64,000 nt of DNA from an uncultured Paracoccaceae bacterium. Its GTDB lineage: Bacteria; Pseudomonadota; Alphaproteobacteria; Rhodobacterales; Rhodobacteraceae. The notes below the pieces were generated by a model. It was not told where the DNA came from. It saw only the letters and a program-made list of their open reading frames with translations, and made no database searches. The stretch covers positions 124,001-188,000 of the forward strand of contig CANNFU010000001.1 of NCBI GenBank assembly GCA_947503965.1, read 5' to 3'. The position numbers were made by a program, and so were the translations under genes. This document shows, in pieces, positions 4,958 through 43,958 of this stretch. How positions within the stretch are numbered: position 1 is the first letter of the stretch; each line of letters starts with the position of its first letter.

Positions 4958-6088
4958 ATGATGATACAGCTGGCCAGCTTTCACAGTGTTATTGATCCAG
5001 CGGCGCCTTCGGGCATCGATTTGAGAAACGTGCAAGAGTTTCACGCCATTGAGCGGATGCTTGAACCGGCCGCGCGCGATGCGCGCGTCAAGATCAACAC
5101 TGAAGGTCCCCCGGCAATAGCCGATGTGGATTGGGGTGCGGTCTTTGACGCATCCGCGGAACTGGCCAAGACAGGGCGTGACCTACGTTTGCTTGTGATC
5201 GTCGTTCGCGCGCTTACCAATCAGGATGGGCTGGCAGGTTTGGCCGCTGGCCTGGCCCTGATCAACGAGACATTGGAACAGCACTGGGATAGCGTGCATC
5301 CGCTCTTGCGTGAACGGGACGACCCCCAACAGGCCGCATTGCGGCGGATCAACAGCCTTAAACAGCTGGAAAACGACGATAATGGCCTGCTGGGTGATCT
5401 GGAAATGAACCCGGTCATGACGCTGCCGGGTCTTGGGGTTATCACGGGACAAAATCTTTATGATGCCGCGCTCAGCGAATTCGATGCGATGAACAACGCG
5501 CCCTCTGGCCTTAACGCGGCCGAAAAGGAAAAGCTGCGCAGCGCCTATGAAGCCAACCGAAACCGCGTGACTGCCGCCTGCCGTGCTGTGGCCGCCGAAC
5601 AGCCCGATTTTGCCGCAACATTGAAAAAGGACGTCGCGGATGCCCTTGACGCTATCGGCACCTTGCAAAGCCGTTTCTCCAAGAAAGCCGGGCTTGCAAA
5701 CGGGGCCGGCATCCATTTTCCGGAACTCACCAATTTCCTGAAGCGCGTCCAAACCATGATGGAGACCGGGATGGTCGAAACAGATGCAGCCGAACCGGAA
5801 ACAGCCAGCCCAGCGCAGAAACCGCAGGCGGCGGCCAGCACAAAGCCAACTGCGACTGCAGCGGCCACGCCGGGCGAGATCAACTCGCGCGATGATGTTG
5901 AACGCGCACTTGGCCAGATCATCGCATTTTACGAACGCACCGAACCGTCCAGCCCTATCCCGCATTTGGCGCGACGGGTGCAACGTATGGTACATATGGA
6001 TTTCATGGAATTGATGTCCGAAATTGCGCCAAGCGGCATGAAAGAATTTCGCAACGCCGCCGGCGTTCAAGATAACAAAGGCTCATAA
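4958..6088 (+). CDS. tssA: T6SS cap/baseplate protein TssA (ImpA N-terminal domain)
   Basis: TssA coordinates baseplate priming and tail-sheath polymerisation in the cytoplasm. The N-terminal ImpA_N region is clear at about residues 15-135 (SGIDLRNVQEFHAIERML, then HWDSVHPLLRERDDPQQAALRRINSL). A low-complexity Ala/Thr/Pro linker at about 275-305 separates it from a short C-terminal segment ending in a helical region (HLARRVQRMVHMDFMELMSE), the usual build of the shorter TssA class. Two adjacent ATGs (4958 and 4961) could start it and the upstream Shine-Dalgarno is weak. It lies 17 bp before tssB. Confidence 0.88.
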   Translation: MMIQLASFHSVIDPAAPSGIDLRNVQEFHAIERMLEPAARDARVKINTEGPPAIADVDWGAVFDASAELAKTGRDLRLLVIVVRALTNQDGLAGLAAGLALINETLEQHWDSVHPLLRERDDPQQAALRRINSLKQLENDDNGLLGDLEMNPVMTLPGLGVITGQNLYDAALSEFDAMNNAPSGLNAAEKEKLRSAYEANRNRVTAACRAVAAEQPDFAATLKKDVADALDAIGTLQSRFSKKAGLANGAGIHFPELTNFLKRVQTMMETGMVETDAAEPETASPAQKPQAAASTKPTATAAATPGEINSRDDVERALGQIIAFYERTEPSSPIPHLARRVQRMVHMDFMELMSEIAPSGMKEFRNAAGVQDNKGS

Positions 6089-33010: not shown

Positions 33011-34438
33011 TCAGGCCACTTCAAACCACGCCATCATACCGGATTTTTGATGCGACAGCATATGGCAGTGGATCATCCATGCCCCGGGATTGTCGGCCAC
33101 AAAGGCGATTCCGACAGTTTCGTCGGCACCGACCAGAACTGTGTCCCGAACGTCACCTGCGGCATTGGCAAAACCGCCTTTCGACTGGACGGTAAAGTGA
33201 TGACCATGCAGATGGATCGCATGTGGGAACATCGAACGGTTGGTCATTTCCAAATGGATTGTCCGACCCTGCGCCGCCCGGAATATCGGCTGATCCATTC
33301 CGTTGGCGGCACCGTTAAATGCCCAGACCATACCGTTGGATACAAGCTCTCGGAACCCCATAGTTTTGCCGGCAAAGCGGGCATCACGCATGCCGCGCAT
33401 CGCGCCGCCTTCCATCAGCAACGTCTCGCGCTGCGGGTTTGAAAGGTCAGGTGCCGGCAGCGTTCCCCACGCAGGCAAAGGGCGCATATCGGGATCGGAC
33501 ATGGCGACAGGTGCGCCCCCATGGACAAAGGCCGCGATCTCAACCAATTCCCCGTTGCCCGGATCAAGCAACAGACCGGCGCGCGCATCACCGTCCAGTC
33601 GGCCATCAATCACGACATCGGCCCTTTGGGCCGGGCCAAGCACCAGCGTCTCAAGGTCGCGAGGCACAACAGGGTGGCCGTCCAAAGCAATCAAGCGCGC
33701 GGTAAAGTCTGGCAGGGCCAGCGGCATGACCCGATCCGTGGCGGTGTTGATGATCCGTAACCGGACCCGCTCGGCGGGCCGAATATCAAATGCGGGATAA
33801 GCTACCCCGTTCACAGTGACGGTGTTGCCCATGCGCCCACCATGCGATGCCGCGTGCAGATCATCCCACCTGCCTTCGACGATCCTCGCCTCGGCGTCCA
33901 GTAGCCAATCATCCAGAACCAGCACCAGCTCGCGGGTTGCCGCGCCACTTTGACCCAGCCAGCGGTCGCGATCTTCCACAATCAACGGACCGGCAAGACC
34001 GCGCGCCACCTGTTCGGTACTGCGATTGTGTGAATGGTACCAATAAGTCCCCGGATCAGGAGCCACAAAGTCGTAGTCGAACCCGTCACCAGGCGGCACA
34101 GGTGCCTGCGTCAGCGGGGCCGCGCCATCCATCGCATTTTCAATGCGGATACCGTGCCAGTGAACCGCGGTGGCTTGCGGCAGATCATTCACCAACCGAC
34201 GCCTGACCCGTTCGCCGGCGCGCAGCCGAATTTCCGGGCCGGGCACCGTGCCCGACGCCCCGGTCGCATAGGCCCAGACAGGCGTTTCAGGATATCCGGC
34301 AGGCGCAAGCTGTGCGAATGCCGGTGCCGCCCTCAAAACCGGCAGATTGTCATCGGCCAGTACCGGCCGTGACAGCAAGGCAGATCCGCCAAAAGCAGTG
34401 GCGCCTTTCAAAACAGAGCGTCGAGAGAATAGATGCAT
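33011..34438 (-). CDS. Tat-exported multicopper oxidase (CopA/CumA-like)
   Basis: A periplasmic laccase-type oxidase that probably oxidises Cu(I) in copper tolerance. The signal peptide carries a twin-arginine motif (SRRSVLKG). All four copper motifs are present: HWHG (about 93-96), YHSHN (about 135), HAIHLHGHHF (about 415) and HCHMLSHQKSGMM near the C-terminus. Length (475 aa) fits the three-domain family. It is last in the copper operon, about 15 bp after copD. The substrate is inferred from its neighbours. Confidence 0.92.
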   Translation of the reverse strand: MHLFSRRSVLKGATAFGGSALLSRPVLADDNLPVLRAAPAFAQLAPAGYPETPVWAYATGASGTVPGPEIRLRAGERVRRRLVNDLPQATAVHWHGIRIENAMDGAAPLTQAPVPPGDGFDYDFVAPDPGTYWYHSHNRSTEQVARGLAGPLIVEDRDRWLGQSGAATRELVLVLDDWLLDAEARIVEGRWDDLHAASHGGRMGNTVTVNGVAYPAFDIRPAERVRLRIINTATDRVMPLALPDFTARLIALDGHPVVPRDLETLVLGPAQRADVVIDGRLDGDARAGLLLDPGNGELVEIAAFVHGGAPVAMSDPDMRPLPAWGTLPAPDLSNPQRETLLMEGGAMRGMRDARFAGKTMGFRELVSNGMVWAFNGAANGMDQPIFRAAQGRTIHLEMTNRSMFPHAIHLHGHHFTVQSKGGFANAAGDVRDTVLVGADETVGIAFVADNPGAWMIHCHMLSHQKSGMMAWFEVA

Positions 34439-38887: not shown

Positions 38888-38915
38888 TTGACAGATTACG
38901 AGTGCCTCCTAGACT
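38888..38915 (+). promoter_or_regulatory. Sigma-70-type promoter of the repeat-peptide gene
   Basis: A perfect -35 box TTGACA (38888-38893) and a -10 box TAGACT (38910-38915) are separated by 16 bp. Transcription would start near 38922, leaving a leader of about 25 bases with a GGAG ribosome-binding site before ATG 38948. It is the best promoter match seen in the window and suggests strong expression. Confidence 0.55.
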
Positions 38916-38947: not shown

Positions 38948-39232
38948 ATGATGATTGGGACCAAAGACGCAGGCAAAGTTCGTTTGGGTAATTATTCAGC
39001 GCCGACCTCGTTCAAAAACACAAAGAAAGTGAAATTGGGCAACGCCGAAACACCCGCGGCACTGAAAGACAGCAAGAAGGTCAAGCTGGGCGGCGGATTG
39101 GCACCCGCCGCGCTGAAGGACAGCAAAAAGGTCAAACTTGGTGCCGGACTGGCCCCCGCTGCGCTGAAAGACAGCAAGAAGGTTAAGCTGGGTGGTAGTT
39201 TCACCCCCGCCGCGCTGAACACAAAACGCTGA
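38948..39232 (+). CDS. 94-residue peptide of five 17-residue tandem repeats
   Basis: Function unknown. The protein is MMIG, five consecutive 17-residue units and the tail LNTKR. The consensus unit is [LF]K[DN][ST]KKVKLGx3xPAA; units 3 and 4 are nearly identical and unit 1 is the most diverged. There is no signal peptide, Cys or membrane helix. It is very Lys-rich, with LG and PAA boundaries that would suit repeated processing. GGAG precedes ATG 38948, and a good promoter lies upstream. The DUF6065-like gene follows 69 bp later with a strong stem-loop between. A repetitive precursor peptide, a surface-binding peptide or a nucleic-acid/polyanion binder are all possible. Confidence 0.75.
   Translation: MMIGTKDAGKVRLGNYSAPTSFKNTKKVKLGNAETPAALKDSKKVKLGGGLAPAALKDSKKVKLGAGLAPAALKDSKKVKLGGSFTPAALNTKR
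38960..39214 (+). repeat. Five 51-bp tandem repeats
   Basis: Units run 38960-39010, 39011-39061, 39062-39112, 39113-39163 and 39164-39214, exactly in frame with the 17-residue protein repeat. Units 3-5 are close to identical in DNA, which suggests recent expansion by slippage or recombination; unit 1 is old and diverged. Confidence 0.85.
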
Positions 39233-39240
39233 CCCGATTT

Positions 39241-39271
39241 GCGGGCTGGGGACACATAGTCCGCAGCCCGC
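39241..39271 (+). promoter_or_regulatory. GC-rich stem-loop between the repeat peptide and DUF6065-like gene
   Basis: The 31 bases form a 13-position stem (GCGGGCTG...CAGCCCGC outer part, then GGAC...GTCC inner part, one G-G mismatch) around the loop ACATA. It begins nine bases after the peptide stop codon. There is no U-tract, so it is more likely a partial terminator or an mRNA-stabilising element that favours the peptide over the downstream gene than a full terminator. Confidence 0.6.
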
Positions 39272-39301
39272 ATCCATTGACCTTCCATTTGGAAAATATC
39301 C

Positions 39302-40033
39302 ATGATTGAGTTTTTCGCTGTGGTCGAAGGTGGCTACAGCCCCATTCTGGCTGATCCCTCAGCAATGGGGCGGCTGCCCACCGCCGCTTTTCGGCATTGC
39401 GAGCCGGTGCGTACCGCCTCTCGGTTCGGTTGGTACGTCTTCTTGCCGGAACAATTGTCGGTGATCTGGGAAGAGGACAACTTCTTCTGGTCCATCGACG
39501 ATTTCGAGAACCGCTATCTGTTGTCGGATGCGATTCAATATCCGCATTTTTCAGATGCATTCGATAACGCGGCCCCCGAAGGCGATGCAGGCTATGCCCC
39601 GCCATTTCTGACCCGCACAAATGATGATGATATCCTGCAAATCTGGACCGGCCTGTTTGCCCGTACCCGCCCCGGCACCGGTCTTTGGGTGCGCGGACCA
39701 GTGAACATGGCCCAGCAATCGGCCCATACTGTGCTGGAAGGCGTAGTTGAAACGGATTGGTGGTTTGGCCCGCTCTTTGCCAATGTCAGGATCGAACGCC
39801 GCGATACCCCCATTGTGTTTCGCCAGACCCGCCCGTTTCTACAGGTTCTGCCCTTTGAAAAGGAACTGGGAAAAGAGACCGCGAAGGCGACACCAACCGT
39901 TCATATGGGGCTTGATGCGCTGGGGGATGCGGAATGGGATGCCTATCGTCGCACCGTTGTGGACCGTATGAAGACCGACAAACCGACAGGGGACTATGCG
40001 GTCATGGCGCGGAAGGGTGGTGCTCAGAAATGA
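39302..40033 (+). CDS. DUF6065-like protein, 243 aa
   Basis: Function unknown; it looks to me like the DUF6065 family, but this is unverified. It is a soluble protein with no signal peptide, rich in aromatic residues. Landmarks are FGWYVFLPEQLSVIWEED, a TGLFARTRPGTGLWVRGPVN block, ETDWWFGPLFANVRIERRDTPI and a C-terminal YRRTVVDRMKTDKPTGDYAVM. Such compact conserved cores are compatible with an enzyme or a cupin-like binding fold, though no catalytic motif is certain. It is 69 bp downstream of the repeat peptide in the same direction and probably co-transcribed. Its 3' end overlaps the convergent HAD gene by 10 bp. Confidence 0.65.
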   Translation: MIEFFAVVEGGYSPILADPSAMGRLPTAAFRHCEPVRTASRFGWYVFLPEQLSVIWEEDNFFWSIDDFENRYLLSDAIQYPHFSDAFDNAAPEGDAGYAPPFLTRTNDDDILQIWTGLFARTRPGTGLWVRGPVNMAQQSAHTVLEGVVETDWWFGPLFANVRIERRDTPIVFRQTRPFLQVLPFEKELGKETAKATPTVHMGLDALGDAEWDAYRRTVVDRMKTDKPTGDYAVMARKGGAQK

Positions 40034-40772: not shown

Positions 40773-43700
40773 ATGCGCAAATTTCGCTCTTACCGATCCC
40801 GTCCGATGCATCTCGGCCCGTTTCCACTGGAAAAGCTGGCGCGTCAATCCACGATTGATTTCGCAACATTGCCACCTTTCGCGCCCGTGTCGTTTCGTCG
40901 GCCCGATGACCGCCTGAGCATTGTGAATGCGATGCAGGACTATCAGGCAATGCTTGATGCGACCCGCGATGGGATGGTCAAACGCGAGATGGCCGAGATC
41001 CCCGATGATCTGGACGAACGGGCGCGGCATCTGAAGGCATTCGGATACTATTGTGATGCGAGCATGGTCGGGATTTGCGAAGTGTCGGCCAAGGCGTGGT
41101 TGCCCGCGGCGGTCGCAAACCCGGATGTGGGCCGGTTGGCTAAAAAACTCCGGGTGATGCAGCCGAAATCGCTGGCGGCGGGCATTGACGTGATCATGGC
41201 TGGCTTGCGCGAAAGCATGGCGTTGCCGCCTGTCGACTGTCGCCATCATAGTCATGCGTTGGTGTTCTTGTATGACCATTCGCGCGATCCCCGCGCGGAT
41301 GAGCCGGGAACAGAGTGGATCAGGGATGCGCTTCCCCAGCGTGCCTGTCTGCGCGGTATGGAAACGGCTGTTACACTGGCCAGTTACATCCGCACGCTGG
41401 GCTATGAAGCGCGGGCACATTCAATGGCGGCGTCGGATGTTCATCTGGGCGCACTGGCCGCCCTTGCAGGCCTTGTTGCTTTGGAAGATGGCGTTCTGCT
41501 CAATCCATTTACCTCAGACCGCTACGGGTTAGCGGCGGTGACTACGACGCTGCAGATGACGCCGGATCAACCGATTGTACCGGGCCAGAGACCACCGGCA
41601 AGCTATCGGACCGGGCTCGGAACCCACGCCAAATCGGCGCGGACACGTGACCCCTTTGACAAACGCGATTTTGCAGCGGGGCCGCACCCATTCGAGACGC
41701 TCAAGCGCGTAGAAGAACCCACCACCTATATCGACCGGCCCAACGTGGCGCGCGTGCCCAAACGGGCAAATATGTTCGTGCGCGGATTGTTCGGCGATAT
41801 GGGCAAACACGTGCAAGAGGCCACGAAGAACGGCAATTACGTGCGCAAATCGGCAGCGGCGTTTGCGTTTCGCCCCTCGCTTGGTGCGTTTGTGTTGTTG
41901 CAGGACGGTGAGGCCGCGCCATCGCCTGTCAACGCATCTTCGGGGCAGAATGCGGCGAACATCAAGGCAGCGCTTTATTATCTGGGTGCCGACGCCGTGG
42001 GTCTTTCCGCCTGCCCGGACTGGACCTATTACAGCCACGACGCAGTGGGCCAGCCGATTACCCCCTACCACAGCAACGCCATATCCATGATCATCGATCA
42101 GGGGCATGAGACGATGGAGGGCGCATCCGGCGATGACTGGATCGCCTGCGCCCAGTCCATGCGCGCCTATCTGCGGTTTTCCCTGCTGGGCGGTGTGCTG
42201 GCGCAGCATCTGCGCAACCTCGGCTATACCGCCCGGGTGCATTCGGTGATGGATGACGAGGTGCTGCACCCGCCGCTCCTGCTCCTCTCCGGTCTGGGTG
42301 AGGTCAGCCGGATTGGCGAGGTGATCCTGAACCCCTTCCTCGGCCCGCGCCTGAAATCCGGCGTGGTCACGACCAACATGCCCATGACCCATGACAAGCC
42401 GATTGATTTCGGCCTGCAGAAATTTTGCGACGCCTGCAACAAATGCGCCCGCGAATGCCCCTCCGGGGCGATCACCGCCGGGCCAAAGCTGATGTTCAAC
42501 GGCTACGAGATCTGGAAATCCGACAGCCAGAAATGCACCACCTACCGCGTCAGCCAGAAGAACGGGGCGATGTGCGGGCGCTGCATGAAAACCTGCCCTT
42601 GGAACCTCGAAGGGTTGTTCGCCGAAGCCCCGTTTCGCAAACTGGCCATGACCGTGCCACAGGCCGCCAAGGCGCTGGCGAAACTGGATGACATGGCTGG
42701 CAAGGGCGCGATCAACCCGGTCAAGAAATGGTGGTGGGACCTTGAGATGGAGGATGACGGCGCCTACCGTCCCTCCCGCCATCCGGTCAACAAACGCGAC
42801 CTGCAAAAGGACCTTGATCTGCAGTTCGCGGATCAGACCCTCGCGGTCTACCCGGCCCCCCTGGCACCGCCGCCCTACCCCTGGCCCTACCCGATGGATC
42901 GCGAGGCCGGGATCGAAGCCTATCAGGCCATGATCGGCGCGGATGAACACCGCAAACGGCGCGAGCAGGGGCTTGCCCCGGAACATGTCTATACGCCCGT
43001 CACAGGCGACGCCCCTGTGATGCAAGTGGTGATCAGCAAGGTCACAAAGATGACCGACGCGGTGACCAAATATGAATTTTCCCTGGCCGATGGGTCCGAC
43101 CTGCCACCCGCCACGGCAGGCGCGCATATCGACGTGGTCGTGGCCCCGGAATTCTTTCGCCAATACTCGCTCTCGGGCGACCCTGCCGACCGCAGCAAAT
43201 ACCAGATCGCCGTCCTGCGCGAGGATGCCGGGCGCGGCGGGTCACAGCTGATGCACCGCATCTTCACCGAAGGGCGCAGAGTGTTTATCTCCCGCCCCAT
43301 TAATCATTTTCCGCTGGTCGTGGATGCCGCAAAGACGCTTCTGTTCGGCGGGGGTATCGGCATCACCCCGATGATCGCAATGGCGCATCGTTTGCATCGT
43401 CTGGACGCGGACTTTGAGCTTCATTACAGTCTTCGCAGGCGGACTGACGCGGGCTTTCTGGATGATCTGGCCGCAGTGCCTTGGGCGGATCACGTGTATC
43501 TGCATGTGAGTGACGAGGGCACCCGGGCGGACCTGTCGCAGGTCATAACCTATTGCGAAGGTGCACATATTTACACCTGCGGACCCGATGCCTATATGGC
43601 CGCCGTGATCGAGGCCGCCACGCAGAACGGCTTTCCCGAACAGGCGCGGCATCTGGAATATTTCGCCGTGCCAGAGCAGCCCGCCTACGAGAACCATCCC

Positions 43701-43958
43701 TTCACTTTGGTACTGCAGGACGGCCGGGAAGTCGCGGTCGCAGCCGATGCATCGGCGTCAGATGCATTGATTGCCGCAGGTTTGCATGTGGATGTGAAAT
43801 GCGCCGATGGCCTGTGCGGTGTGTGTAAATGCGGCGTCTTGTCCGGTGAGGTCGAACACCGCGACTTCGTGCTGTCAAAATCGCAGCGGGAAAACCATAT
43901 GATTCTGTGTCAAAGCCGGGCCGCGGCCCCGCGCGGCATTGTGAAAATCGACCTTTAG
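40773..43958 (+). CDS. Self-sufficient reductive dehalogenase fused to flavin reductase and 2Fe-2S domains
   Basis: A 1061-residue cytosolic fusion that should reductively remove halogen from an organohalide, probably a halophenolic compound, using NAD(P)H. The N-terminal part (about 1-640) is the corrinoid-binding RdhA module, ending in two 4Fe-4S motifs: CDACNKCARECP (about 551) and C-x13-CGRCMKTCPW (about 588-607). An FNR-type reductase follows, with RQYSLSGDP (about 795) for flavin and GGGIGITPM (about 858) for nucleotide, then a 2Fe-2S domain with CADGLCGVCKC (about 1009). The order matches the aerobic, non-respiratory class known from Comamonas BhbA and the enzyme of Jhaorihella thermophila. 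There is no Tat signal and no RdhB anchor. No dedicated regulator or transporter is adjacent. Substrate not readable. Confidence 0.92.
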   Translation: MRKFRSYRSRPMHLGPFPLEKLARQSTIDFATLPPFAPVSFRRPDDRLSIVNAMQDYQAMLDATRDGMVKREMAEIPDDLDERARHLKAFGYYCDASMVGICEVSAKAWLPAAVANPDVGRLAKKLRVMQPKSLAAGIDVIMAGLRESMALPPVDCRHHSHALVFLYDHSRDPRADEPGTEWIRDALPQRACLRGMETAVTLASYIRTLGYEARAHSMAASDVHLGALAALAGLVALEDGVLLNPFTSDRYGLAAVTTTLQMTPDQPIVPGQRPPASYRTGLGTHAKSARTRDPFDKRDFAAGPHPFETLKRVEEPTTYIDRPNVARVPKRANMFVRGLFGDMGKHVQEATKNGNYVRKSAAAFAFRPSLGAFVLLQDGEAAPSPVNASSGQNAANIKAALYYLGADAVGLSACPDWTYYSHDAVGQPITPYHSNAISMIIDQGHETMEGASGDDWIACAQSMRAYLRFSLLGGVLAQHLRNLGYTARVHSVMDDEVLHPPLLLLSGLGEVSRIGEVILNPFLGPRLKSGVVTTNMPMTHDKPIDFGLQKFCDACNKCARECPSGAITAGPKLMFNGYEIWKSDSQKCTTYRVSQKNGAMCGRCMKTCPWNLEGLFAEAPFRKLAMTVPQAAKALAKLDDMAGKGAINPVKKWWWDLEMEDDGAYRPSRHPVNKRDLQKDLDLQFADQTLAVYPAPLAPPPYPWPYPMDREAGIEAYQAMIGADEHRKRREQGLAPEHVYTPVTGDAPVMQVVISKVTKMTDAVTKYEFSLADGSDLPPATAGAHIDVVVAPEFFRQYSLSGDPADRSKYQIAVLREDAGRGGSQLMHRIFTEGRRVFISRPINHFPLVVDAAKTLLFGGGIGITPMIAMAHRLHRLDADFELHYSLRRRTDAGFLDDLAAVPWADHVYLHVSDEGTRADLSQVITYCEGAHIYTCGPDAYMAAVIEAATQNGFPEQARHLEYFAVPEQPAYENHPFTLVLQDGREVAVAADASASDALIAAGLHVDVKCADGLCGVCKCGVLSGEVEHRDFVLSKSQRENHMILCQSRAAAPRGIVKIDL

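Follow-up and report, generated by a model that had tools for sequence, protein, structure and literature searches.

A tandem-repeat peptide gene and an adjacent DUF6065-subfamily gene of an uncultured Paracoccaceae bacterium look like an undescribed two-part system

Among the closest described counterparts of the gene pair reported here are the multi-core RiPP precursor/enzyme pairs, such as dikaritins, prochlorosins and graspetides. The present pair, located in a 64,000-nucleotide stretch of DNA (hereafter the window; contig CANNFU010000001.1, positions 124,001 to 188,000), resembles them in possessing (i) a small gene composed of nearly identical tandem units, (ii) a single conserved partner gene downstream, (iii) a hairpin between the two genes and (iv), in some lineages, a regulator or transporter close by. 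It differs from them in the lack of a visible conserved leader, of an invariant modifiable residue and of a known RiPP enzyme family, and no protease gene adjoins the window pair. A ribosomal precursor with repeated core-like units is present, as a repeat ORF with a selected translated frame. The protein encoded next to it in the window belongs to no known modifying-enzyme family (DUF6065 is its only assignment in Pfam), and the N-termini of the peptides, compared by eye, differ between lineages and reveal no conserved leader. Because the known maturation enzymes, the leader and the protease are missing, the pair was not filed as a RiPP; it may work like one.

The original prediction knew of no described system with these parts, and our searches agree with it. 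No known kind of system fits the tested features, and no paper naming DUF6065 or PF19541 was found in the literature searched (titles and the beginnings of abstracts); within that literature, the pair is therefore considered a new kind, and it looks like an undescribed two-part system.

The features of the locus are collected in Table 1. A 94-residue peptide made of five in-frame 17-residue repeats had been predicted, and the ORF, Tandem Repeats Finder and an in-frame alignment all confirmed it; the 51-nt array (score 215) is by far the best of the seven found in the window. The Lys-rich block, LG and PAA that had been ascribed to every unit were recognized in units 2 to 5, whereas unit 1 is divergent. 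The peptide has a computed pI of 10.5. Comparison of neighbouring units of the window gave pS = 34.8/51.8 (0.67) versus pN = 29.2/152.2 (0.19), and the corresponding values for 28 other arrays, pooled, are 0.40 and 0.18. As pS greatly exceeds pN between the window units, the protein sequence in this translated frame is under purifying selection, and the resemblance between the units has long been maintained in the protein.

Table 1. Features of the peptide–partner locus (positions refer to the window)
Feature	Position	Strand	Basis and description
Promoter-like site TTGACA-16-TAGACT	38888..38915	+	Consensus scan, 10/12 matches; weak
Repeat peptide gene	38948..39232	+	94-aa ORF, Lys-rich, five 17-aa units
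Unit 1 KDAGKVRLGNYSAPTSF	38963..39013	+	In-frame alignment; same unit type as the L025 array
Unit 2 KNTKKVKLGNAETPAAL	39014..39064	+	In-frame alignment
Unit 3 KDSKKVKLGGGLAPAAL	39065..39115	+	In-frame alignment
Unit 4 KDSKKVKLGAGLAPAAL	39116..39166	+	In-frame alignment
Unit 5 KDSKKVKLGGSFTPAAL	39167..39217	+	In-frame alignment
Hairpin after the peptide stop	39240..39272	+	Intergenic dG -32.6 kcal/mol, z -5.5 vs dinucleotide shuffles
Partner gene	39302..40033	+	243-aa ORF, DUF6065 subfamily, predicted dUTPase-like fold
Partner residues 146-156, EGVVETDWWFG	39737..39769	+	Conservation; reads as the place of dUTPase motif 3, in a statistically weak register

Database searches assigned the peptides to no common family. 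Pfam returned scattered matches for 68 peptides, with any one family matching at most 4 of them, and NCBIfam gave short partial matches far under its cut-offs for the eight peptides searched. PHROGs and PADLOC contained no match for the window peptide, and a PDB sequence search with the L093 peptide produced none. A HET-s-type amyloid motif (PF11558) was considered for the window peptide and rejected, its score of 19.2 bits being under the cut-off of 32.2; across the 68 peptides, two match this family at E ≤ 0.01, both below the Pfam cut-off, and 66 do not.

The peptide and partner ORFs are separated by 69 nt. They are flanked by genes of the opposite strand that look unrelated, encoding an MTTB-type methyltransferase (5' side) and a HAD hydrolase (3' side). 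As originally stated, no export or protease gene lies beside the pair within the window (ORFs and Pfam); in relatives, genes of MFS, EamA or YeiH transporters are often adjacent. PADLOC identified no defence system, and a phage origin of the window copy was rejected, with the partner unmatched in the phage collection and no phage gene among the flanking genes identified. Further downstream (40773-43958, + strand), the window encodes a 1061-aa protein with a reductive-dehalogenase-type model match, followed by ferredoxin-reductase-like and 2Fe-2S parts. A multicopper oxidase gene occurs in the vicinity of the pair at three loci of Rhodobacterales type (window 33011-34438, L036:3836-5656 and L160:5917-7422); in L036 it immediately precedes the pair, and in the window it is on the opposite strand at a distance of about 4.5 kb.

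The stem-loop predicted after the peptide stop proved to be real and has no T-run behind it. Among 63 loci, the 60 nt located 3' of the peptide stop have a mean z of -1.91, and z < -3 was obtained at 20 of them; of the 60-nt stretches preceding the peptide none fell below this value, and of those following the partner 5 did. The window hairpin is probably an element of differential expression, and the recurrence of structure at this place suggests that the peptide is produced in excess over the partner. The promoter, originally called strong, is plausible but unremarkable: the site upstream of the peptide gene is a modest consensus match, and three such sites were found in the scanned stretch versus 1.2 expected.

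The gene behind the peptide had been called DUF6065-like, and its product indeed exceeds the Pfam cut-off for this family (PF19541; 63.3 bits vs 26.6, E 3e-17). DUF6065 is its sole Pfam match at E ≤ 1; NCBIfam and PADLOC returned nothing for it, and PHROGs one weak unnamed match. The partner belongs to a subfamily that is related to other DUF6065 proteins in profile-profile comparison (98.8%, E 6e-17) and has C, G-W, R, N and E-T-D residues in common with them. The subfamily is distinguished by (i) scores of 188 bits or more on an HMM of its own, on which the remaining DUF6065 genes identified reach no more than 53, with the exception of one further gene in L055 (114 bits); (ii) an additional conserved stretch around residues 60-108; and (iii) the upstream peptide, which it alone carries. 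The residues invariant in 97 partners include C33, R131 and N135, and R31, E34, E150 (89/97) and D152 (94/97) are near-invariant. Alignment with one peptide-less DUF6065 protein showed that C33, R131, N135, E150, T151 and D152 are common to both, while much of the stretch at residues ~60-108 is additional in the subfamily. Since the core residues are shared with a peptide-less protein, the core activity may have nothing to do with the peptide; the common core and the extra segment together suggest that the pocket is probably family-wide and that the peptide is probably recognized via residues ~60-108. In L011:349-1998 (- strand), a fusion protein combines a DUF6065 domain with one of the Cupin_8/JmjC type, which may hint at the role of the wider family; domains of this type hydroxylate proteins.

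A model of the partner, built from 97 sequences (mean pLDDT 90.8, pTM 0.85), confidently predicts a dUTPase-like fold. Among solved structures, dUTPases match it best (Foldseek E 5e-4), and superposition on 3ecy gave a Z of 10.6 and an rmsd of 2.8 over 117 residues, at 14% identity. The partner is thus like proteins of the dUTPase / dCTP deaminase fold (beta-clip) in its predicted fold and, in a statistically weak register, in the order of segments resembling motifs 2, 3 and 4, but it shows no significant sequence match to them, is about 100 residues longer, and is modelled with C-terminal helices in place of a Gly-rich motif 5.

When 146 related genomes were searched with the partner, three close relatives were identified in addition to the window copy, namely L014 (a second pair of the source genome), L004 and L005, each immediately preceded by a different repeat peptide; distant DUF6065 proteins were also identified, these without a peptide. 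A profile of the four partners retrieved 143 relatives in genome contigs (80 of which were kept) and 12 in viral contigs. The subfamily occurs in proteobacteria and also in phage-like sequences. Within the window's family, 8 of 394 genomes gave high scores (at least 219 bits), the source genome of the window contributing two copies; the subfamily is present in 5 of 385 genomes of an even sample of the class, which indicates a patchy distribution.

The repeat motif recurs beside DUF6065-like genes elsewhere, a point that the original prediction had proposed to check. In 73 of 100 upstream regions of partners, an HMM of the unit (16 residues, from 146 units of 49 loci) reached its threshold of 8 bits; this figure is partly by construction, since the 49 training loci are among those scored, and among loci outside the training set, 27 of 46 pass. 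A few false units were included in the training, e.g. from L087, which has no recognizable peptide. The controls gave no match in 100 reverse complements, 97 downstream regions and the upstream regions of 18 other DUF6065 entries, which count the own-genome copy three times and therefore represent 16 distinct genes. With either an HMM match or a tandem repeat accepted, a peptide, with the motif D-x-G-x-V-R-[LIF]-G-xxx-P or with tandem repeats, was found at 82 of the 95 partners with at least 150 nt upstream. The 13 partners failing this rule comprise four with a single motif of 6.5-7.7 bits and nine others, among them four Elioraea second copies and L063, whose divergent peptide is visible by eye. 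These counts exclude L095 (complete partner ORF not found), five loci with less than 150 nt upstream, and repeat copies of the same gene (L001, L003, L017, L018, L034, L061 and L080). The Elioraea partners without a recognizable upstream peptide (L072, L077, L087 and L100) form a branch of their own and offer a natural control for peptide-independent function.

The reverse test was performed on 75 genomes of another family, nine of which encode the partner. It yielded 28 repeat matches at E ≤ 0.01, 26 of them (six arrays) within about 1.4 kb of a partner; the remaining two are weak, one having internal stops and the other being partial. Repeats occurring mostly without the partner, the outcome that would speak against the pairing, were therefore not observed in the family tested. 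Unit types, assigned by eye from the peptides, track the partner tree, the 8 types requiring 9 changes across 74 labelled rows versus at least 38 in 200 label shuffles; the window partner clusters with those of L023 and L036 (support 99). The peptide and partner genes are thus adjacent, co-occurring and co-inherited.

Not only the repeat number, whose variation the original prediction had proposed to test, but also the length and sequence of the unit vary between lineages. Units are 11 to about 29 residues long and are present in 1 to about 27 copies, single-unit peptides being found among the relatives. The usual core is D-x-G-[KR]-V-R-[LIF]-G-x-x-x-P-[AS]-[LF], with lineage variants LGNMSPAFKV, HIANKSPAF, LGMMAPAFG, LGGLSPLF and LGGxxRLPA. 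No unit residue is strictly invariant: P is absent from some units, and G is replaced by A in the HIANKSPAF type.

The neighbourhoods of the relatives contain several kinds of recurrent genes. A regulator of the BTAD/TPR type (BTAD / SARP-type) is encoded near the pair at 35 of 91 loci (36 ORFs), with BTAD over the cut-off in L036; none was found close to the window pair or among the 10 other sources searched. A YeiH-type transporter gene is placed just upstream at 15 of the 91 loci, and an EamA transporter gene adjoins the pair in L014, L059 and L097. In the HIANKSPAF branch (four loci), an MFS transporter gene directly follows the pair; of the three products scanned, two are above the Pfam cut-off and one is just below it. 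At 14 Acetobacteraceae-type loci, most of them contigs listed as viral, the pair is followed by a terminase gene, and often by portal, scaffold and capsid genes too. The gene order YeiH-like, peptide, partner, response-regulator-like (opposite strand), terminase, portal, scaffold and capsid recurs, in whole or in part, in L086, L063, L094 and L116-L126, and may represent a fixed prophage or a gene-transfer-agent-like element. In an uncultured phage-like contig (L127:1-11442), the peptide (about 5018-5212, with an 11-residue unit) and partner (5294-6049) genes lie within a head-gene module, between a portal-like gene, so called from gene order and size as it has no family match, and a head maturation protease gene followed by that of the major head protein.

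Tentatively, we favour a dedicated peptide–partner module, in which the partner would recognize each unit and act on the units chemically. The small gene would give rise to a basic peptide with, depending on the relative, 1 to about 27 copies of the unit, probably in excess, and the dUTPase-fold partner would bind the units one by one, so that the array would multiply the number of units per peptide. Each unit would then be altered chemically, the peptide being a substrate of several units like those of multi-core precursor/enzyme pairs, and the product or a by-product would be exported by whichever transporter the lineage has nearby. Direct binding, recognition via residues ~60-108, peptide excess, modification and export are all steps that we infer. 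Single-unit peptides, the lack of an invariant unit residue and the 13 of 95 partners that are peptide-less by our rule argue against this reading. Given the absence of an invariant unit residue and of a protease or known maturation enzyme, and the presence of the core residues in a peptide-less DUF6065 protein, "peptide-binding" is nearly as good a description of the pair as "peptide-modifying".

It is accordingly a real possibility, if a somewhat doubtful one, that the peptide is a multivalent ligand and no chemistry takes place: it would serve as a tether or scaffold on which units dock to the partner, clustering or inhibiting it, with copy number setting the valency. dUTPases are trimers. 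Variable unit spacing and copy number around a short core motif that is retained, the lack of a strictly invariant reactive residue, and the peptide excess suggested by the hairpin all fit such a role, as do the short KVKL/KVRL strands modelled in the units. The latter come from a read-through model (stops read through; not a real protein), in which the units acquire periodic short strands with a pLDDT of about 62-75; inspected for docking, this model gave no contact evidence, and in fold comparison its dUTPase domain alone was matched. Single-unit peptides would be unable to cross-link, and the transporters beside the pair in several lineages are left unexplained by a ligand of this kind.

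We consider it unlikely that the partner handles nucleotides, using the dUTPase pocket to bind or hydrolyse them, with the peptide as its regulator or inhibitor. The structural match to 3ecy and the ordered motif-like segments point in this direction, and a protein repressor, Stl, is known from PDB titles to bind dUTPases. In the set of other DUF6065 proteins, the PGW..R..N, EGLVETDW and GEAFC segments fall on what we take to be dUTPase motifs 2, 3 and 4, an alignment that is statistically weak and serves as a lead. By our reading of the statistically weak alignment to dUTPase, GxVETDxWFG of the partner stands against motif 3 (GxIDxxYxG), with the catalytic Asp read as Glu in most members, and the Gly-rich motif 5 appears to be absent, the C terminus being modelled as helical. 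Profile comparison with 22 dUTPases (hhalign) gave probabilities of 0.2-0.35%, which are not significant, PF00692 is unmatched, and the source genome already carries a separate, ordinary dUTPase gene.

Self-assembly of the peptide into a beta-solenoid or amyloid-like fibre, for which the partner would be a chaperone or cap, appears very improbable: the periodic strands of the read-through model and the two sub-threshold HET-s matches agree with it, but the period is too variable for one solenoid, single-unit forms occur, and the other 66 peptides have no such match. Both genes are uncharacterised, yet a chance origin, i.e., a repeat ORF that arose by accident next to a conserved gene with no relation to it, is refuted by the co-occurrence, selection and hairpin controls and retains practically no probability.

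Returning to the dedicated module, a broader proposal is conceivable, though we hold it with reserve: the pair would represent a new class of ribosomal-peptide system, in which a dUTPase-fold protein, rather than any known maturation enzyme, processes tandem units; proteobacteria would have recruited it along with regulators of the BTAD type and several mutually unrelated exporters, and phages would carry it too. For the DUF6065 family, the analysis provides a predicted, dUTPase-like fold and, for one branch, a recurrent partner peptide, and with these two the function of DUF6065 becomes directly testable by co-expression. The dUTPase fold is known for nucleotide hydrolysis. If the partner only binds the units, the pair would constitute an undescribed multivalent peptide–protein module; if it modifies them, it would be a peptide-modifying enzyme built on a nucleotide-hydrolysis fold, and "new class of RiPP" would then be the better label.
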